A stretch of 64,000 nucleotides of DNA. Source: Kappaphycus alvarezii (lineage: Eukaryota > Rhodophyta > Florideophyceae > Gigartinales > Solieriaceae). The notes under the pieces were generated by a model, which had not been told where the DNA came from, ran no database searches, and saw only the letters and a program-made list of their open reading frames with translations. Positions 1 to 17,285 of this stretch are shown here, in pieces (within the stretch, counting starts at the first letter, position 1; every line of letters starts with the position of its first letter). Location of the stretch: the NCBI GenBank assembly GCA_002205965.3, contig NADL03000217.1:1-64000 (forward strand), read 5' to 3'. The translations under genes and the position numbers were made by a program.

Positions 1-1206
1 TGCCACAGTACAGTCATTTTTCTTTACAGTACACTTGTCACGAACAAACTGAACATCAAGTCCATTGTCGACCATCTGGCGTACTGAAATTAGAGAAAAG
101 GCAAAACTGGGAACGTGTAGCACATTGGTGAGCTTACAGGATTTTTCAATGCCGTTTACTGATAGCATCAAATGAACGTTTCCGACTCCAGCCACAATCG
201 CACAAGCCTTGGTTCCCATCTCAACGCGGCTGTTCGAGACCTCACGGTAGTCTGTAAAGAGGCTTCTGTCAAACGTCATGTGCGCGGAGCACCCGGAATC
301 TATAAGCCAGGTGTTAGAGGTTATTTTAACGTTAGACTTATCCGCTTTGTTCACCAGACAAATGTACTCCACCTCATTCACTTCCGAGCCATCTTTTTCT
401 TGAGCGATCATTGCCGTTGGCTTCTGTAATTGCCTCCGCTGGAATCGTTCGGGTGGAGAAGGTCGCTTTCCATTGACATCCTTTCCCCAGCAACGGGAGG
501 CGGTGTGTCCGGTGTGACCACAATTAGTGCACGTCAAGGAAGACTGGCGCCGTCCTTCGAAAACGTTCCCAATAAGGGCGGCACTTGAAGTCATCTGTCG
601 CCTGGACGACTTCATCGAAGCTCGTTGTTCCTCTTGAAGTAGACGACTTTTGACATACTCCACTCCAAAGGAGTTGTCTTCAGATCCAAGAGCGTCCAGA
701 GCAACAATGAGGCTGTGAAAACGCGGTGGAAGGCCGTTAAGCACTGCCATAGCCATCTCTTTGTCATCGATAACGACCCCCATAGACTTCAAGCGAGCCG
801 CCAGGTGTCTCACACGTCCAATATACGGAAGCACCTTCTCATTTTCTAGCATACTGACAGTGTAAAACTCTCTACGAGCAGCCAACTTGTTCAGCAGCGT
901 ATGTCGCTCAAACACCTCTAGAATAGCATCCCACATACCTTTGGCAGTAACAGCATCTCTTACATGGTCCAAATGGTCATCAGAAAGAGACAGCCCTATA
1001 ATTGCTCTGGCTTTTCGATCTCCCTGCTTCCAAGTCCTATACGTAGAAGAATTTTCATCAGCAGGGACGTTATCATCGGTAATGTACTGTTCTACATCGC
1101 GCAGTGCCAGAAGTAGCTGAATTTTCTGCTTCCACACATAAAAATTCGTATCCGTCAGCTTCTCTATCTTCATTGACCCTCCTCCTTGATCTTCTCCGCC
1201 ACTCAT
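1..1206 (-). CDS. Copia Gag-protease, 5' part of the Gag-Pol polyprotein (partial, open to window edge)
   Basis: This is a 402-codon frame without a stop, running off the start of the window. Residues ~12-200 are a copia-type Gag (UBN2-like): an N-terminal tract containing FYVWKQKIQLLLALRD, then a helical region containing RHTLLNKLAARR. Residues ~226-239 form a CCHC zinc knuckle (C-x2-C-x4-H-x4-C) that binds RNA in the family. Residues ~302-308 hold the aspartic protease motif IDSGCSA; the protease cleaves the polyprotein. The ATG at 1206-1204 is chosen because the frame is open from it; a second in-frame ATG at 1173-1171 is also possible. The matching region of copy 2 carries frameshifts and a stop, so the intact frame here suggests recent activity or selection. 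The edge truncation hides integrase and RT. Confidence 0.9.
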   Translation of the reverse strand, partial: MSGGEDQGGGSMKIEKLTDTNFYVWKQKIQLLLALRDVEQYITDDNVPADENSSTYRTWKQGDRKARAIIGLSLSDDHLDHVRDAVTAKGMWDAILEVFERHTLLNKLAARREFYTVSMLENEKVLPYIGRVRHLAARLKSMGVVIDDKEMAMAVLNGLPPRFHSLIVALDALGSEDNSFGVEYVKSRLLQEEQRASMKSSRRQMTSSAALIGNVFEGRRQSSLTCTNCGHTGHTASRCWGKDVNGKRPSPPERFQRRQLQKPTAMIAQEKDGSEVNEVEYICLVNKADKSNVKITSNTWLIDSGCSAHMTFDRSLFTDYREVSNSRVEMGTKACAIVAGVGNVHLMLSVNGIEKSCKLTNVLHVPSFAFSLISVRQMVDNGLDVQFVRDKCTVKKNDCTVA

Positions 1207-1369: not shown

Positions 1370-2034
1370 TTACTGCTGAGACAAAACTACTTTCAAGTGA
1401 TCTTTCCCGTTCTCGTGGCGTTTCAGAACTTCGTGGGAGTCGAACACTCTATCACAAACAGTACACCTAGGGGTCTCCTTTCTGTTCGCTACTCTAGTCC
1501 TATGACCCTTAGAATGAACGTGATCGTAGAATGTCTTAGCACTATTGCAGCTAATCTGGCAGGTCTTGCAGTACCTCTTGTGCCTCGGCGGAACTCGCTT
1601 CTTCGCCTTCAGCTCCCTTTTCGCGACTCGATCGGCAAGCGCTTTGGCTTTCTTGGCCGAGAGTCGTTGAATTTTTCTAATTGGCGTCTGTGGAGGTACT
1701 GACCTGCGGGGGATCCTATATCCTTCCTGGGCGACAGAGAGGGCGAGCGTCGGCGGCGGTGGTGTTGTCGGTTCAATAACCTCGATCCTCTCCACACTTG
1801 ACCTCCTCCCTGACGGTAAACCTCTGACCGATGGAGCCCTGGGCACTCGCGGCACCAGGGCTAATTCCGAGTCTAGCACAACCCCGCAGAAGCAGGCACA
1901 GATAGTGGAAGTGATCGTCAGTAACAGCTTTATGGAATTACAAGTCTTTAGACCAACCAAAAGGTGCAAAGAGAATCACTTCGATGTGCAAAGAAATGGA
2001 ATTATTCAAATAACTTACCAGAAACGTGAGACAT
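1370..2034 (-). CDS. Accessory two-zinc-finger protein encoded upstream of gag (spliced, 2 exons)
   Basis: The predicted protein has 172 residues, from exon 1 (2034-2019, ATG plus 13 bases) and exon 2 (1872-1370, ending TAA). Exon 2 alone has no ATG, so the spliced start is needed; joining the exons keeps the frame. Residues 6 to ~75 are low-complexity and proline-rich. Residues ~79-105 are strongly basic (Lys/Arg), resembling a nuclear-localisation or nucleic-acid-binding stretch. Two zinc fingers follow at ~107-129 and ~142-164, both C-x2-C-x12-H-x5-H, the spacing of U1-like/matrin-type fingers that often bind RNA or structured nucleic acid. A homologue sits at the same place in copy 2. Standard copia elements carry no such ORF. 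Function is unknown; RNA binding, packaging or nuclear targeting is inference. A TTG-started 199-residue reading was rejected. Confidence 0.7.
1873..2018 (-). other. Predicted 146-bp intron of the zinc-finger ORF
   Basis: The donor is G|GTAAGT at 2018 and the acceptor is GTGCTAG|AC at 1873. Copy 2 has a 145-bp counterpart with G|GTAAGC and the same acceptor. In both copies the join yields the same residues (Asp-Ser-Glu-Leu) after a short Met-Ser exon. The unspliced upstream frame is not kept between copies because of an indel, which supports splicing over read-through. Confidence 0.65.
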
Positions 2035-2115: not shown

Positions 2116-2132
2116 GAACTGGGCCCATAACC
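2116..2132 (-). other. Primer-binding site for initiator tRNA-Met half-molecule
   Basis: GGTTATGGGCCCAGTTC lies directly after the LTR end. Its GGTTATGGGCCCAG core is complementary to the anticodon stem-loop of eukaryotic initiator tRNA-Met, not to the tRNA 3' end. That is the copia-type arrangement in which a cleaved 5' half-tRNA primes minus-strand DNA synthesis. It is identical in copy 2. Confidence 0.85.
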
Positions 2133-7741: not shown

Positions 7742-7815
7742 TGCTGTTGATTTGGCAAGACGATCACATGACCCCACATCGGTGCCAAACCTCATAAGAG
7801 GCATGAGGCATGTTC

Positions 7816-8064
7816 CACGTGTACACATGCACACGTGTCGAATGAAGGGTGGCGCTAAGGCATTCCGGAAGAAATCCAAAGTTCCCAGGGACGAAAGTAC
7901 GATTTTGAGAATCAGCGATTTAGAGGGCAAAATGTTGTTTATGGGGTGATTTTACGTAGGGTAGGGTACTATAAGTGGATGATGAGTATACTGTATGAGA
8001 GATATGCTGAGGAAAGCTATGTACACGTGTACGGGGAGGCAGCTGTGTATGTGATGTACACGTG
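7816..8064 (+). promoter_or_regulatory. CACGTG cluster in 5' LTR of copy 2
   Basis: Exact CACGTG hexamers lie at 7816, 7832, 8024 and 8059, in the first quarter of the LTR (U3 by position), and recur in each complete array unit. A TATA-like ACTATAAGTGG lies between the pairs near 7968, but its counterpart in copy 1 is not conserved. The promoter role is inferred. Confidence 0.45.
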
Positions 8065-8257
8065 GTACAGCTAAGAAAGAAACCTTTTTGTGCAGTGTTG
8101 TACACGTACTGTACTAGTGCCAAATGAGGAACTGTACTTCGCACTGTACATCGTAAATACCAAGTACTGTACTCCTTACTATACCTGAGTTTGTACAGTA
8201 GGAATCAATTATGGCAATACTGTCATGACTGCTAGAAAGAGGTATTTGATTTTATAT

Positions 8258-8772
8258 TATGTATGAGGATTCTAGTTATGATTAAGGGTTTTATCCAGCT
8301 GCATCCAAAAATCGGTTATGTGATTCCATCATACGTATGGGTTTCTAGTTATGATATTGGTTTGTACAACTGCATCCAAAAATCAGTTATGTGATTCCAT
8401 CATACGTATGTGGTTTCTAGTTATGATATTGGTTTGTACAACTGCATCCAAAAATCAGTTATGTGATTCCATCATACGTATGTGGTTTCTAGTTATGATA
8501 TTGGTTTGTACAACTGCATCCAAAAATCATTTATGTGATTCCATCATACGTATGTGGTTCTAGTTATGATATTGGTTTGTACAACTGCATCCAAAAATTC
8601 AGTTATGTGATTCCATCATACGTATGTGGTTTCTAGTTATGATATTGGTTTGTATAACTGCATCCAAAAATCAGTTATGTGATTCCATCATATGTATGAG
8701 GTTTCGTAATTATGATGAAGATTGGACCGACTGCATCCAAAAATCAGTTATGTGATTCTATGTTACGTATGA
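8258..8772 (+). repeat. 73-bp subrepeat block (7 copies) in 5' LTR of copy 2
   Basis: Tandem ~73-bp units contain CTAGTTATGATA, CTGCATCCAAAAATCAG and TATGTGATTCCATCATA. Three versions are recognised by the bases just before CTGCATCC: CAG (GGTTTTATCCAG), ACAA (GGTTTGTACAA) and CCGA (ATTGGACCGA). The block ends in a small hairpin, ACGGA-TTGAG-TCCGT. Confidence 0.9.
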
Positions 8773-9101
8773 CGGATTGAGTCCGTTATTTTGGCACAAG
8801 GAATTTCGTTTCCGGTAAGTCTGCAAAATAAGGTACAGTATTGATGTGTGTATTGGGCCAACCTATTTACACAAATTTGTGTTCCAAATTTGCCCCTAAT
8901 GACTGTTATCACCGGGCCAAGATCTTGAAATCCGCTCAAATGGCTCAGTTTGTGGGATTCTGTTAGTGGACGCAGTGAGTTAGAAAGTAGTTGTAGGTTG
9001 TACTTAAGGCCAGGATTTTAGAGTTCCGAGTAAATTCTGGGTAGCCAAGCCCGCAACTTCATCCGTCCAGCAAAGTCCTTCACCCTCTCCGATTCCCATT
9101 A

Positions 9102-9118
9102 GGTTATGGGCCCAGTTC
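9102..9118 (+). other. Primer-binding site for initiator tRNA-Met half-molecule (copy 2)
   Basis: GGTTATGGGCCCAGTTC, identical to the site in copy 1 and directly adjoining the LTR end. Complementarity is to the anticodon arm of initiator tRNA-Met, as used by Drosophila copia. Confidence 0.85.
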
Positions 9119-9197
9119 AACGCCGTCTCTTTCTCTGAACCCCGTAAGTCGCCGTGTGTTGCTGCATTGTTTTCTTGTCTATCTCATTCTCTTGATT

Positions 9198-9871
9198 ATG
9201 TCTACTCGTTCCGGTAAGCTATTTGAATAATTCCATTTCTTTGCACATCGAAGTGATTCTCTTTGCACCTTTTGGTTGGTCTAAAGACTCATAATCCCAA
9301 AAAGCTGTTACTGACGATCACTTCCACTTTTGTGCCTGCTTTTGCGGGGTTGTGCTAGACTCGGAATTAGCCCTGGTGCCCGAGTGCCCAGGGCTGCGAC
9401 AGTTAGGACCTTGCCATCTGTGTGGGAGGACAGTTGTGGAATCGATCGAAGTACTCGAACCAGAAGGACCGCCGCCGAAGACGCTCGCGCTTCCCTCGTC
9501 TAGGGAAAGGTATAGGATCCCTCGTAAGTCAGTACCTCTGGATAAGCCAATAAAAAAAGTTCAACGCCTCTCGGCAAAAGAAAGCTAAAGCCTCGCCGAT
9601 CGAGTTGCCAAGAAGGAACTAAAGGCAAAACGAAGAGTTCCGCCGAGGAAAAAGAAAAGGTACTGCAAGCTCTGTGATATTAGCTGCAATAGCGCACAGA
9701 CATTCTACGATCACATCAATTCTAAGGGTCATAGGACTAGAGAGGAAAAAACAAGAAAAAAGACCCCTAGGTGTACTGCTTGTGATAGAGTGTTCGATTT
9801 CCCACGAGGTTTTCAAGCGTCACGAGAACGGGAAGGAACACTTGAAAGTAGTTTTGTCCCAGAGAATTTAA
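9198..9871 (+). pseudogene. Accessory two-zinc-finger protein, frameshifted copy
   Basis: This is the homologue of the copy 1 zinc-finger ORF at the same position between primer-binding site and gag. Exon 1 is 9198-9213 (ATG, Met-Ser-Thr-Arg-Ser), exon 2 is 9359-9871. The frame is broken near 9580 (insertion in an A-rich run) and near 9798 (before the second His-containing helix). Despite this, both fingers keep all eight metal ligands and the C-x2-C-x12-H-x5-H spacing when each segment is read in its own frame: CKLCDIS...H...H and CTACDRVF...H...H. The basic linker and the C-terminal KVVLSQ are also kept. Retention of ligands through an otherwise diverged sequence suggests past protein-level selection before inactivation. 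Confidence 0.75.
9214..9358 (+). other. Predicted 145-bp intron of the zinc-finger ORF (copy 2)
   Basis: Donor G|GTAAGC at 9214, acceptor GTGCTAG|AC at 9358. Sequence and length match the copy 1 intron closely, including the shared segment TTTGAATAATTCCATTTC. Confidence 0.6.
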
Positions 9872-10091
9872 AGAGATCCATTTGTTTGTTTGAGCGACGT
9901 CTTTGGCCTTTGCTTTAGTCTAGAGTTCGTTGCTGTGTTCTTATAGAGGTGGGCTTGCCACTACAAGGGACTATCGGTCCCCGGCTTGGATCTTCGAACA
10001 GAACATTAGCACCTCTAGAATATTGCAATGAGTAGCGAGAAGATAGAATGAATATTGCAATGAGTAGCGAGAAGATCAAGGAGGAGGATCG
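9872..10091 (+). promoter_or_regulatory. Leader between zinc-finger ORF and gag (copy 2), with hairpin and 32-bp duplication
   Basis: It contains the same GGGAC-TATCG-GTCCC hairpin (9967-9981) and the same surrounding ~90 bases as copy 1. A 32-bp tandem duplication covers the upstream gag ATG (10028 and 10060). A single-base loss after that ATG puts it out of frame, so it runs into a stop at 10093 just as the downstream gag ATG (10092) begins. Confidence 0.55.
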
Positions 10092-13000
10092 ATGAAGATC
10101 GAAAAGCTCACGGATACCAATTTCTACGTGTGGAAACAGAAGATTCAGCTCCTGTTGGCCCTTCGCGATGTGGAACAGTATATTACTGATGGCACCGTTC
10201 CTGAAGATGAACAATCTTCCACTTACAAGGCATGGAAGCAAGGGGATCGAAAGGCCGGGCCATCATCGGCCTGTCGCTGTCCGATGATCACCTGGATCAT
10301 GTGAGAGATGCTGTCACAGCCAAAGAAATGTAGGACGCCATCTTGGAAGTTTTTGAGCGCCACACATTACTAAATAAGCTGGCGGCCCGGAGAGACTTGT
10401 ACACGGTCACCATGCTAGACAATGAGAACGTTTTGCCATACATAGGACGTGTGCGACACCTAGCAGCTCGCTTAAAGTCAATGGGAGTCATCATTGATGA
10501 CAAGGAAATGGCTATGGCAGTTCTCAATGGTCTTCCGCAGAGGTTTCAAAATCTCATTGTAGCGCTTGACGCTCTTGGATCCGAAGATAACACGTTCGGA
10601 GTAGAATATGTAAAAAGTCGCCTGCTCCAAGAGGAGCAACGTGCATCGATGGCTTACTAGAAGGCAGAATCCGCCAAGGTCTGCTCTTATTGGGCACATC
10701 CCTGAGGCAAGGCGTGTTTCGACTTTGACATGCACCAACTGTGGTCACAATGGACACTCCGCTGCCCGCTGCTGGGGAAAGGACATCAACGGAAGGCGAC
10801 CACCGCCACCTGACCGGTTCCTACGTATACAGTCACAGAAGCCTACTGCGATGATTGCTCAAGAGCAAGAAGATCTGGAAATTAATGAAGTCGAGTACAT
10901 ATGTCTGATGAACAAGGTAGATAACTCTGGTATCAACATAACCTCAAACACTTGGCTTATCGACTCTGGATGCTCCGCACACATGACATTTGACAAGAGA
11001 CTGTTCTCCGACTACAGGGAGGTCTCAAACAGCCGCGTAGAAATGGGAACAAAAGCGTGTGCAGTAGTAGCTGGAGTCGGGACCGTCCCCATTACGCTTT
11101 TAGTGAGCGGAGTTCAAAAGTCATGCAAGCTCACCAATGTGCTGCACGTTCCAAGCTTTGCTTTTTCCCTAATCTCTGTACGTAAGATGGTCGATAATGG
11201 ATTTGACGTTGAGTTCGTTCGTGACAAGTGCACTGTGAAGAGGAGTGACTGCATCGTGGCTACTGCCACAAGTCGAGGAGAGCTGTATGTGCTTGACACA
11301 TGTAACGAGGTTCATTCGGCGCACAAAGCCTCTTTGAAGACATGGCATGAAAGATTGGCCCACGTTCACACTCAAGGAATATTGTCCATGGCTCGTAAGA
11401 ACGTGGTAAGTGGACTTCATATCTCCTCTTCAGATATAACAAGAGACGCTAGCTCATCTTCTGACTGTGAATCTGTGACATGTGATGCGTGTGTGTTAGG
11501 AAAAGCAACTCGTGCTGTGATTCCTAAACAGCGCTCTGGAGGCAGGGCCAAACATTTTAGACTTGGTCCATTCGGACGTCTGCGGCCCACTCCAAGTACA
11601 GTCAGTAGGTGGTGCTAGATACTTTGTCACTTTTATCGATGACCACTCAAACTGGAGTGTTGTCTATCCGATGAAGAGTAAAGATGAAACGTTCCATTTT
11701 TATCAGAAGTTTGCCCAATATGCCTTCACACACACTGGTCAACGCGTGAAAGTGCTTCGATCTGATCGTGGAGGAGAGTATCTTTCTTCAGAGTTCCAAT
11801 CCTTTCTATCGTCACAAGGAACTGTTCATCAAACGACCGCTGCATACACACCTGAACAGAATGGTGTGGCAGAACGGCTCAATCGTACCCTGATTGATCT
11901 CGTCAGGTCTATGCTGTCCCATATGAAGGTTCCGAAAGCTTTCTGGGCTGAAGCTCTTGATAACGCAGTTTACGTTCGCAATCGTGTCACGACAAGAGCT
12001 TTGGGTGGTCTCGTTACTCCATTTCACCTATGGATGAAGAAAAAGCCCGATGTATCTCACCTACGTGTGTTTGGATGTCAATGCTGGTACAAGGTGCCTG
12101 GTAATGAGGTGCGTAAACTTGACGACCGCGCAACAACGGGAATGTTTGTTGGGTATCCGCCGGGAACTAAGGCCTACAAAATTTGGGATGACAATTTACA
12201 TCGCATTGTTATTTCCAGGGATGTGCAGTTCGATGAGTCGAGACCAGGGGCTTGCTCTTACGATGAACATTTCCGATGATAATGATATGGACGTTGACCC
12301 AGTGGAGACGACCGATACTGACGAAATTGAGTCTGAAACATCTAATGGTGATAATGAACATGGCATTGAAACAGGGTCACCGGCGGAGGTTGAGAACTTT
12401 CAAAGTCAAGGTATTGAGCCCGACTCAACTAATGAGACTTTGCAACCAGAAGAAGTGAGTGGTGAGCAAGATGCTGGTCCCGGCGATGTGGAACCTCGCC
12501 GCTCCACTCGTTCACGACGCCCACCCCGACAGTGGTGGACAGGCCTGGTGGGAACCAGCTTACTCACACCTTCCTGTGGCGACATCAACATACCGAACTC
12601 CTTTAAAGAGGCGATGGGTGGACCACAACCACAGTTCTGGCAGAAAGCGATTGATAAGGAGCTAGAGTCCCAACGCAAAAACAAAACCTGGGCACTAGTT
12701 CCACGATCGGAAGGTGCCAATATTCTAACTTCTCGCTGGGTATTTACTGTAAAGGACATGCCGGACGATAACGGCACGTTGACTCAAAAGGGAAAAGGTC
12801 GCCTGGTTGTGCGGGGCTTTCAACAAATTGAGGGGATTGATTACTCAGAGACTTTTGCGCCGGTGATCAAATTTACAACGATTCGATTGTTGTTGGCGAT
12901 TGTAGCCCACTTCGATTTAGAGCTTCATCAAATGGACGTGGTCACGGCCTTTCTGAACGGTGACTTAGAAGAGGATATTTATATGGAGCAGCCTGAAGGT

Positions 13001-14155
13001 ATCGTTGACTCTTCCAGGCCCAATCATGTTTGCAAACTTCTCAAGGCTATCTATGGTCTTAAGCAAGCGAGTCGACAATGGCACAAAAAGATTGACGATT
13101 TCCTAATTCACACTCTTGGCTTCAAGACTACGAGAAGTGACGCCTGTCTATATACAAACATATCAGAAAAAGGTGTTATGCTGATTGCCCTATATGTGGA
13201 TGACTTGCTTCTTGCGGGAAGTGACCTGAAAGCCGTGACCTGGATGAAAGGTGAACTGAACAAGAGATTTGAGATGAAAGATTTAGGCGAGGCCAAAAAG
13301 TGCATTGGGCTTGAAATAAGTAGAAAAAGGGTCCCTAGACGGATCTATATCTCGCAGACAGAGTATGCCAAGTCCATTTTGAAACGTTTTGGTATGGCCA
13401 GTTGCAATCCCGTGAGGACTCCGATGGAACAAGGATTACACCCTGAGATGTCAACTAGCCCGTATTGCGATGTACCATATCGACAGATCATTGGCTGCTT
13501 AATGTTTCTTATGGTAGGGTCACGTCCAGATCTTGCATATGTGGTGGGAAAACTGTCCCAACACTGTGAGAACCCTCGCGAGGACCACTGGCAAGCAGCC
13601 AAACGAGTTCTGAGATATATCAAAGGAACGCTCTCACTAGGTGTAATTCTAGATGGAAATCTCCCAGTGCAAACTCTAGAGGGCTTCAGCGATGCAGACT
13701 GGGGTGGTTGCTTGGACTCGAGAAAGTCCACCAGTGGATATGTGTTCAAACTGTGTGGGGGAGCTATTAGTTGGTCATCTAGGAGACAAACGGTCGTTGC
13801 GAAATCCACATGCGAAGCGGAGTATATTGCACTGTGTGAGGCTTGCAAAGAGGCAGCTTGGCTCAGGTGCCTTCTTGCAGACGCATTGGGAAAGTCGAAA
13901 GACAGCACAGTTACAATCGGGTGTGATAATGCTGGTACAATAGCGTTTGCGGGTAACGAAGGAGTGAACAGGCGAAATAAGCACATTGACATATCATATC
14001 ATTTTGTCCGAGATGCTGTGACTCGAAAGATTGTTTCACTGTTTCACGTACCTTCTACAGATATGCCAGCAGATATACTCACCAAGCCTCTTGGTCGCAT
14101 TCAATTCATACAATGCATAAAATCTCTAGGCCTCGGAGAGCTGCACGATGCTTAG
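10092..14155 (+). pseudogene. Copia Gag-Pol polyprotein, inactivated
   Basis: The full domain order is present, about 1,355 codons. Gag (UBN2-like) is at 10092-10660 and the CCHC knuckle at 10731-10772. The protease motif IDSGCSA is at ~10959. The integrase HHCC zinc region is at ~11342-11510 and its DDE core at ~11563-12030 (HSDVCGPL, FIDDHSNW, ENGVAERLNRT). RT is at ~12660-13400, with motif A MDVVTAFLNG and the catalytic box YVDDLLLAG at ~13195. RNase H is at ~13680-14040 (SDADWGG, CEAEYIAL, CDNAGTIA). Compared with copy 1, a base is lost near 10255, a Trp codon is TAG at 10331, and the frame shifts near 10655; further shifts lie near 11550 and 12265. From 12265 to the TAG at 14153 the RT-RNase H part is uninterrupted. 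The catalytic residues remain, so inactivation is recent in that part. Confidence 0.9.
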
Positions 14156-14166
14156 GTCATGTAATC

Positions 14167-14174
14167 GAGGGGGG
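14167..14174 (+). other. Polypurine tract of copia copy 2
   Basis: GAGGGGGG lies directly before the TGTTG of the 3' LTR and 11 bases after the gag-pol stop. This is the expected plus-strand primer site. Confidence 0.75.
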
Positions 14175-15743
14175 TGTTGTTGATTTGGCAAGACGATCAC
14201 ATGACCCCACATCGGTGCCAAACCTCATAAGAGGCATGAGGCATGTTCCACGTGTACACATGCACACGTGTCGAATGAAGGGTGGCGCTAAGGCATTCCG
14301 GAAGAAATCCAAAGTTCCCAGGGACGAAAGTACGATTTTGAGAGATCAGCGATTTAGAGGGCAAAATGTTGTTTATGGGGTGATTTTACGTAGGGTAGGG
14401 TACTATAAGTGGATGATGAGTATACTGTATGAGAGATATGCTGAGGAAAGCTATGTACACGTGTACGTGGTGGCAGTTGTGTATGTGATGTACACGTGGT
14501 ACAGCTAAGAGAAGAAACCTTTTTGTGCAGTGTTGTACACGTACTGTACTAGTGCCAAATGAGGAACTGTACTTCGCACTGTACATCGTAATATACCAAG
14601 TACTGTACTCCTTACTATACCTGAGTTTGTACAGTAGGAATCAATTATGGCAATACTGTCATGACTGCTAGAAAGAGGTATTTGATTTTATATTATGTAT
14701 GAGGATTCTAGTTATGATAAGGGTTTTATCCAGCTGCATCCAAAAATCAGTTATGTGATTCATCATATGTATGAGGTTTCTAGTTATGATATTGGTTTTA
14801 CACTGCATCCAAAAATCAGTTATGTGATTCCATCATACGTATGTGGTTTCTAGTTATGATATTGGTTTGTACAACTGCATCCAAAAATCAGTTATGTGAT
14901 TCCATCATACGTATGTGGTTTCTAGTTATGATATTGGTTTGTACAACTGCATCCAAAAATCAGTTATGTGATTCCATCATATGTATGAGGTTCGTAATTA
15001 TTGAAGATTGGACCGACTGCATCCAAAAATCAGTTATGTGATTCTATTTACGTATGTGGTTTCTAGTTATGATATTGGTTTGTACAACTGCATCCAAAAA
15101 TCAGTTATGTGATTCCATCATATGTATGAGGTTCTAGTTATGATGAAGATTGGACCGACTGCATCCAAAAATCAGTTATGTGATTTCCATCATATGTATG
15201 AGGTTTCTAGTTATGACATTGGTTTGTACAACTGCATCCAAAAATCAGTTATGTGATTCCATCATACGTATGTGTTTCTAGTTATGATATTGGTTTGTAC
15301 AACTGCATCCAAAAATCAGTTATGTGATTCCATCATATGTATGAGGTTCGTAATTATGATGAAGATTGGACCGACTGCATCCAAATATCAGTTATGTGAT
15401 TCTATTTACGTATGACGGATTGGCACAAGGGAATTCGTTTCCGGTAAGTCTGCAAAATAAGGTACTGTATTGATGTGTGTATTGGGCCAACCTATTTACA
15501 GAAATTTGTCAACTTTGGAAGCAGTTCCAAATTTGCCCCTAATGACTGTTATCACCGGGCCAAGATCTTGAAATCCGCTCAAATGGCTCAGTTTGTGGGA
15601 TTCTGTTAGTGGACGCAGTGAGTTAGAAAGTAGTTGTAGGTTGTACTTAAGGCCAGGATTTAGAGTTCCGAGTAAATTCTGGGTAGCCAAGCCCGCAACT
15701 TCATCCGTCCAGCAAAGTCCTTCACCCTCTCCGATTCCCATTA
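14175..15743 (+). repeat. 3' LTR of copia copy 2
   Basis: 1,569 bp, from TGTTGTTGATTTGG to CCCATTA. It has ten 73-bp subrepeats (about 14696-15410) against seven in the 5' LTR, and three of them are the CCGA-type that occurs once elsewhere. Near 15510 it has AACTTTGGAAGCAGTTCC, which resembles copy 1, where the 5' LTR and array have the shorter form. It also lacks the ACGGA hairpin arm (GACGGATTGGCACAAGG). The two LTRs of this element are therefore not simple duplicates of each other. Confidence 0.85.
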
Positions 15744-17285
15744 AAAACAGTTCTGGGCCGAAGCTCTGGAGACTGCTGTATACATTCGAAACAGAGTTAA
15801 AACTCGCGCACTTCCAAGCCACACGACCCTGCATCATATTGGTACGGGCGCAAGCCCAATTTATCGCACCTTCGTACGTTGGAAGTAAATGTTGGTACAC
15901 CATCCCGGCAAGCCAGTTGAGTAAAGTTCGACTACCGAGCATGGGAAGCAATTATACTTGGATATGCGGAAGCCAGCAAAGCTTAAAAGCTGTGGATCCT
16001 GAATTACACAAGGTAGTTGTTTCCAGAGATGTCAGATTCAGTGAGAGCGAATCCTGCAACTCCGAAATAAATGAAAACAAATCAGATGAGCGTCTCGCAA
16101 TTAGCTCTGATGAGGATTTTGTAGGGGTTGGCGTTGAACAGGACGATCAAGTTCAGTTTCCTACACTGGACACAGCCGAGATGGTTACAGCTTCGCGACA
16201 AGTTATTCAGGGACAAAGCAATGACCAGGCTAATGCTGGAAACGACCCGACGGTCGCTGAAAACGTTGGTATAGATAACGAAATCTCTGAGCCCTCTCAT
16301 GTGAATGTAGCTCCACGGAGATCTGAGAGGATTCGAAGGGCCCCAAATGCTTGGTGGAGGTCTAATATATTCTTGACACCTAATGACACGGCTCTCGTCA
16401 CAAATATTGTCAGCATCACGTACCGACACGCGGCGACAGGCCGGGACGCAGATTTTTGGAAGTCTGCCATCGAGTCCGAGCGAGACTCGATCATTCGGAA
16501 CAAAACATGGAAGTTAGTCCCACGTTTGGAGGCCTCAAATATTCTGACTCCAAAATGGGTGTCTGCAATAAAAGATGCCCAGGACTCCAACGGTGGCTTT
16601 TCTCGAAAATCGAAGACGCGTCTTGTCGCTCGTGGATTCCAACAGGTCAAAGGGGTAGATTATAATGAGACATACGCCCCTGTCGTGAAGCTCAAGTCAA
16701 TTCGGGTGCTTTTGGCACTTGTAGCGCATCAGGATCTGGAGCTGCATGAAATGAACGTTAAGACGGCATTTCTGAACGGTGATATGGAAGAGGACGTGCA
16801 CATGGAGCAGCCGGATGGGTTTAAAGACACCTCGAAACCGAATCATGTCTGCAAGTTTCTGAAGGCCTTGTATGGTTTGAAACAGGTACATAGGCGGTGG
16901 CACCAGAAAATCGATGACTTTCTTGTTGATGGGCTCAAGTTCGGAAGTAGCACTAATGATGCCTGTGTTTATGTAAAATTGGACCCAACCTCCGACTCAA
17001 TCATGATTATCCTCCTGTATGTTGATGACTTGCTGCTTGCAGGAAACGGCGTGGAGGCTATTGCATGGATGAAGGGGAGCTGAACCGCCGTTTTGAAATG
17101 AAAGATTCGGGAGAGGCGAAAATGGTTGTTGGCCTTGAAATTTCTCGCCGGAGATCCGAACGCTCCTTGTGTTTATTCCAGCCACGGTTTGTAGACAGCG
17201 TTCTAGAGCGATTTGGAATGCAGAATTGTAGACCTGTTCCAACTCCTATGAATATTAGTACTGACGAGTTAAACGTGGATCGGTC
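15744..17285 (+). pseudogene. Internal fragment of a second copia family (integrase end to RT)
   Basis: The fragment starts inside integrase (FWAEALETAVYIRNRV near 15750), passes the variable linker (RRSERIRRAPNAWW) and contains most of RT (RLVARGFQQVKGVDYNETYAPV, YGLKQ, YVDDLLLAGN), ending shortly after the catalytic palm. It is clearly related to copy 2 RT but belongs to another family. Frameshifts lie near 15830-15900, and a base is lost from a G run near 17075. RT motif A reads MNVKTAFLNG, where the catalytic Asp of the family is replaced by Asn. It has no LTR of its own: the left edge abuts a forward LTR end and the right edge a reversed LTR end of the copy 2 family, so it sits at an orientation switch. 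Confidence 0.85.

Follow-up and report, generated by a model that had tools for sequence, protein, structure and literature searches.

The window analyzed here, a 64,000-nt stretch of Kappaphycus alvarezii DNA, belongs to contig C216, which is 82,536 bp long; the whole assembly comprises 884 contigs totaling 336,021,096 bp. The window holds two copies of one long terminal repeat (LTR) retrotransposon in opposite orientations, with the following features:

1..1206, minus strand: gag and the start of pol of copy 1; Pfam Retrotran_gag_2 and Pol_BBD; open to the window edge, 402 codons
1225..1300, minus strand: conserved leader block before gag, containing a hairpin at 1269-1255
1370..1872, minus strand: exon 2 of the zinc-finger gene, encoding a basic linker and two C-x2-C-x12-H-x5-H fingers; stop at 1372-1370
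1873..2018, minus strand: putative 146-nt GT-AG intron, GTAAGT to CTAG, with a TACTGAC branch-like motif
2019..2034, minus strand: first exon of the zinc-finger gene (16 nt, phase 1), starting with an ATG; a 10-codon ORF if unspliced
2119..2132, minus strand: primer-binding site (PBS) GGTTATGGGCCCAG, the exact complement of an initiator-tRNA-like anticodon arm in fragment L084
2133..3707, minus strand: 5' LTR of copy 1, its outer end taken from the first-pass annotation
7742..15743, plus strand: copy 2 of the element with both LTRs, which are ~96% identical over 1039 columns
9199..9871, plus strand: zinc-finger gene of copy 2 (subfamily B), with a frameshift; both ends are approximate

The family is Ty1/copia, as identified by its gag and pol profiles, the LTR pair, the PBS and, in copy 2, the order of gag_pre-integrs (10851-11618) before RVT_2 (12050-14155). 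The ATG at 2034 lies 98 nt downstream of the start of the PBS. A search for a full initiator-tRNA gene returned a fragment only (L084:1500-1545); this sequence ends soon after the anticodon arm, and neither ARAGORN nor Rfam calls a tRNA there.

The LTRs contain internal tandem repeats, of 72 bp in copy 2 (8261-8771 and 14694-15402) and 82 bp in copy 1 (2546-2854). A piece of another copia pol (15941-17083; ~64% DNA identity to copy 2) lies between copy 2 and a head-to-tail array of this element's LTR in a single orientation, which occupies 17285-64000 and continues to position 70521 of C216 (L002). The last part of the LTR is present in 32 full copies within the window, and another 5 lie past its edge. 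The units start at LTR position 24, with position 1 found only in the outermost unit, and the array is an LTR-born satellite.

A zinc-finger gene between the PBS and gag

The first-pass annotation described a two-finger gene at the same place in both copies, intact in copy 1 and frameshifted with its metal ligands retained in copy 2. The C-x2-C-x12-H-x5-H motifs were located at 1570 and 1465 (minus strand) in the leader of copy 1, between the PBS and gag, and at 9664 (plus strand) in copy 2, where the second finger lies beyond the frameshift and its ligands are visible in the sequence. The distance from stop to gag ATG, previously given as 157-164 bases, measures 163 nt for copy 1 and, for the subfamily B copies L034 and L037, 160 nt. 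The description of copy 1 as intact stands once the 146-nt intron (2018-1873) is removed, but not for a plain ORF: the zinc-finger frame (1975-1373) contains no methionine, and translation from the ATG at 2034 in unspliced RNA meets a stop after 10 codons, in both subfamilies. The GT-AG intron explains both the methionine-free frame and the dead-end ATG. Its donor, branch-like motif and acceptor TAG were judged by eye and, together with the phase, are all kept across three subfamilies. Exon 1 begins with ATG in 47 of the 49 distinct loci with the donor motif and with TTG in the other 2. Joined in phase, the two exons would encode, we infer, a basic protein of 172 amino acids. A longer gag product made by splicing from exon 1 was considered and rejected; from a conserved TATAG/AG site, subfamily A is in frame but subfamily B and the more distant relative L001 (see below) run into stops.

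Pfam identifies two zf-C2H2_jaz (PF12171) stretches in the protein (43.2 bits against a curated cut-off of 22.6; 4e-11), and zf-met is also matched. In the AlphaFold model of exon 2, a helix and a pair of finger-like units are predicted with modest confidence (mean pLDDT 60). A fold search with this model returned nothing at E 0.001; the top-ranked structures were DNA-binding fingers.

Occurrence in the genome

The assembly was searched with the zinc-finger protein, and all 150 scored candidates (of 2240 first-look candidates) matched, 7 of them with an internal stop by hand count; this list is biased toward good copies. The matches were always in the leader of the element (42 of 42 fetched from the genome). 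A fairer sample was drawn by gag, with the L001 sequence as query. L001 is a 5.4-kb contig assigned to a Robiginitomaculum metagenome-assembled genome (MAG); the copia element on it has an uninterrupted gag-pol frame, and the contig is presumably a eukaryotic contaminant in the bacterial MAG of the public record. Its gag and pol are 60% and 61% identical to those of this family. All 103 scored candidates from this search (of 4854) matched, and 26 have a 1404-aa open frame (hand count).

The zinc-finger gene or its remains are present in 38 of 38 loci chosen by gag. Among the first 30, of which 19 are, by coordinates, elements already fetched with the zinc finger, exact donor and acceptor motifs occur in 29, and the full-length frame with the usual end occurs in 23. 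The thirtieth locus, L046, is a subfamily B copy with the gene frameshifted near its start, and L054 has more than 166 codons but a shifted end. The eight further gag loci, all absent from the zinc-finger list, retain the gene or its remains in every case, although L082 keeps the last codons only. Over 53 distinct loci (L004 to L075), mostly chosen by zinc-finger score, exon 2 is full in 42, the donor motif is present in 49 and the acceptor motif in 51. These genome-wide zinc-finger and gag-locus counts rule out a few stray copies as the source of the pattern. In 19 loci gag is open to the end of the view, and in 4 of these (L054, L057, L060 and L065) the zinc-finger frame is broken; the gene may therefore act in trans or be dispensable, or some of the breaks may be assembly errors.

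Zinc-finger matches recur ~6.5 kb apart on contigs C98, C884 and C722, and subfamily B matches recur ~4.2 kb apart on C199, which would fit a tandem arrangement in which neighboring internal regions have one LTR in common. Elsewhere in the assembly, 36 stretches of OAA-type lectin repeats are clustered on C625 and C786; one such lectin gene has as its best PDB match the lectin SfL-1 (1.2e-144), from Solieria filiformis, so the lectin genes indicate a red-algal host, probably within the Solieriaceae. The RuBisCO large chain is absent from the assembly.

Selection on the zinc-finger frame

Alignment of the copy 1 gene with its frameshifted counterpart in copy 2 (4 of 166 codons left out for gaps) gave dN 0.167 and dS 0.699, a ratio of 0.24 (bootstrap 0.15-0.39). 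The two shifted frames of the same pair gave 0.94 and 3.25, which rules out a chance ORF. Intact representatives of subfamilies A and B (L013 and L034) yielded dN 0.147, dS 0.748 and a ratio of 0.20 (0.12-0.30), and the finger domain alone a ratio of 0.18 (0.08-0.35); the comparison of A with the close A' was uninformative (0.43; 0.10-1.61). Changes at codon positions 1, 2 and 3 numbered 33, 20 and 55, which excludes a noncoding leader that only happens to look like coding sequence. The zinc-finger gene is thus under purifying selection, a result that comes from essentially one contrast, A versus B. This selection is weaker than that on gag; the visible gag-pro of the two window copies has a dN/dS of 0.05. 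With ratios far below 1 and the gene or its remains retained in the gag-chosen loci, the results support the earlier proposal that this copia family carries an additional gene.

The leader as RNA

The intron is nearly invariant between A and B, with 138 of 144 compared bases identical and 2 gap columns, whereas dS exceeds 1 in the linker of exon 2. Conservation extends into the first codons of exon 2, where no change separates the window copies (11 codons compared) and one base differs between intact A and B. Predicted folding of the intron exceeds that of shuffled sequences (z of -2.75 and -2.25), and folding of the whole pre-gag region is not clearly better than that of shuffles (z of -0.85 in copy 1, -1.76 in copy 2 and 0.34 in L001).

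The leader is also depleted in ATGs. The 926-nt PBS-to-gag leader of A has two, of which one belongs to the PBS and the other to exon 1; shuffled versions have 10.4 on average (0 of 1000 as low). The zinc-finger exon has none. The leaders of B and A' likewise have 2 each, against means of 10.0 (0 of 1000 as low) and 10.8 (1 of 1000). Across the 49 distinct loci with both anchors (4 of 53 lacked one and were left out), the leader has two ATGs in 43, three in 4 and one in 2. Four nearly identical copies each have 0 ATGs in the 666 nt formed by exon 2 and the spacer, and 926-nt windows farther downstream in those copies have at least 17. In L001, the 463 nt before gag, all the leader that the contig holds, have 0 ATGs against a shuffle mean of 5.2 (2 of 1000 as low), and gag-pol windows have at least 16. 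No zinc finger is found in those 463 nt, and a search of the MAG for one gave no match, in a search run without a positive control. The ATG-free leader therefore seems more widespread than the zinc-finger gene. Scans of viral contigs with pol, the zinc-finger protein and gag revealed no relative.

L001 shares the pre-gag hairpin. Three of its 6 pairs are changed on both sides in L001, with all cells paired; the comparison involves three sequences only, and 16 of 500 shuffles reach the same result. Rfam returned nothing useful on the whole window or on the leader. The near-invariant intron, the ATG-poor leader and the covarying pre-gag hairpin are new in this analysis.

A proposed regulatory role

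An RNA-binding role for the protein, raised in the first-pass annotation, is plausible because the predicted product is basic and belongs to a class named for RNA binding. The reading we favor, with a rough probability of 0.55, is that the leader holds an accessory gene, expressed by splicing, whose RNA-binding product regulates the element's own unspliced RNA. Splicing of the 16-nt exon to exon 2 would yield the 172-aa basic regulator, and the unspliced RNA would serve as genome and gag-pol message. In the latter, the upstream ATGs would open 10-codon ORFs only, after which ribosomes could scan the ATG-free zinc-finger exon to reach gag. The most likely target of the protein would be the leader RNA of the element itself. 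Binding, which may take place in the nucleus, would favor the export, protection or packaging of unspliced RNA, a job like that of Rev or CERV; the invariant intron, missing from the spliced message, would mark genomic RNA. Counted against this regulator are L001, with no finger in its visible leader, the 4 of 19 gag-open loci with a broken gene, the TTG in 2 of 49 loci, the weak pre-gag fold and the DNA-binding top fold matches.

A more specific version, a 'complex' copia element, is offered tentatively. The leader would act as a splice switch that produces either a nuclear RNA-binding regulator or gag-pol, with the zinc-finger exon doubly used, as coding sequence or as ATG-free scanned leader, and the invariant intron would be a packaging or export signal recognized by the protein.

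Alternatively, the protein could bind DNA or chromatin, at the LTR or at preferred insertion sites, and steer transcription or integration, which we regard as unlikely though the most credible of the competing explanations. C2H2 fingers are able to bind DNA, the top fold matches are DNA-bound (none at E 0.001), local targeting would be in keeping with the head-to-tail copies, and many copies are ~6.5 kb apart. Recombination between LTRs can also yield tandem copies, however; the Pfam class is of the jaz/zf-met type, and the conserved leader RNA is left unexplained. Less likely still is a role against silencing by the host, in which the protein might, for instance, bind small or double-stranded RNA. 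The name of jaz-type fingers does refer to double-stranded RNA binding (Pfam description) and the copy number of the family is high, but the invariant intron goes unexplained.

We give equally little weight to a gene that is real but unspliced, whose product would start at a non-ATG codon of the open frame or be reached from the 10-codon ORF through a frameshift. Upstream, this frame stays open as far as 1975 and contains no methionine, and the TTG at the start of exon 1 in 2 of 49 distinct loci could be read the same way. Such a gene does not account for the donor, branch-like motif, acceptor and phase kept in three subfamilies, and the exon-2 frame read upstream of the acceptor has no coding pattern (ratio 1.46, few changes). 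Finally, a captured piece of a host gene, or a frame that arose incidentally within a noncoding but conserved leader, with no protein function is very improbable: L001 does without the gene in its visible leader and the frame is broken in some gag-open loci, but the dN/dS of 0.20 with shifted-frame controls near or above 1, the codon-position pattern and the full frame in 42 of 53 distinct loci, mostly picked by zinc-finger score, all argue for a functional protein.

If the RNA-binding regulator is correct, an extra gene outside the usual copia plan may let the element control its own RNA, and the model makes sharp predictions: a single splice junction, a single protein and a single leader RNA. 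The ATG-free coding exon also shows clearly how a single stretch of sequence can be under two constraints.

Comparison with known systems

The family resembles other Ty1/copia elements (Pseudoviridae) in its copia-type gag, the order of gag-pre-integrase and RVT_2, the LTRs and the PBS, and differs in the additional two-exon zinc-finger gene between PBS and gag. Its PBS, GGTTATGGGCCCAG, is of the anticodon-arm type, as in Drosophila copia. Copia elements are known from red algae, among them the GalEa-like PyRE10G (PMC3587641). The CoRex1/GalEa1 PBS is TGGTAGCAGAGC, corresponding to a tRNA 3' end (PMC3587641); this GalEa-type PBS was looked for at the PBS of the present family and was not found. 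Described elements with an extra ORF likewise conserve it in most copies, but the ORF lies mostly between pol and the 3' LTR, and the portions of these accounts that were covered contain no pre-gag zinc-finger gene. Nor does the literature covered in part, including PMC7264820, describe any copia lineage in which a zinc-finger gene sits between PBS and gag, which is no proof that such a lineage is unpublished.

The closest parallel is one of logic, not of sequence, and comes from a different type of element. In the nematode LTR retrotransposon Cer1, the accessory protein CERV is produced from a spliced element mRNA and is required for nuclear export of unspliced Cer1 RNA, and the first exons of its gene share the frame of gag (PMC10309623). 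The zinc-finger gene, unlike that of CERV, precedes gag; it has a conserved splice-like layout, and its splicing and any export role of the CERV or Rev kind are putative. If that role is real, it would suggest that RNA-level self-regulation arose in red-algal retrotransposons too, in a high-copy family with many open gag-pol frames. Spliced regulators are typical of complex retroviruses, and we know of none made by splicing in copia elements; to our knowledge, a Rev-like circuit of this kind would be new for Ty1/copia.
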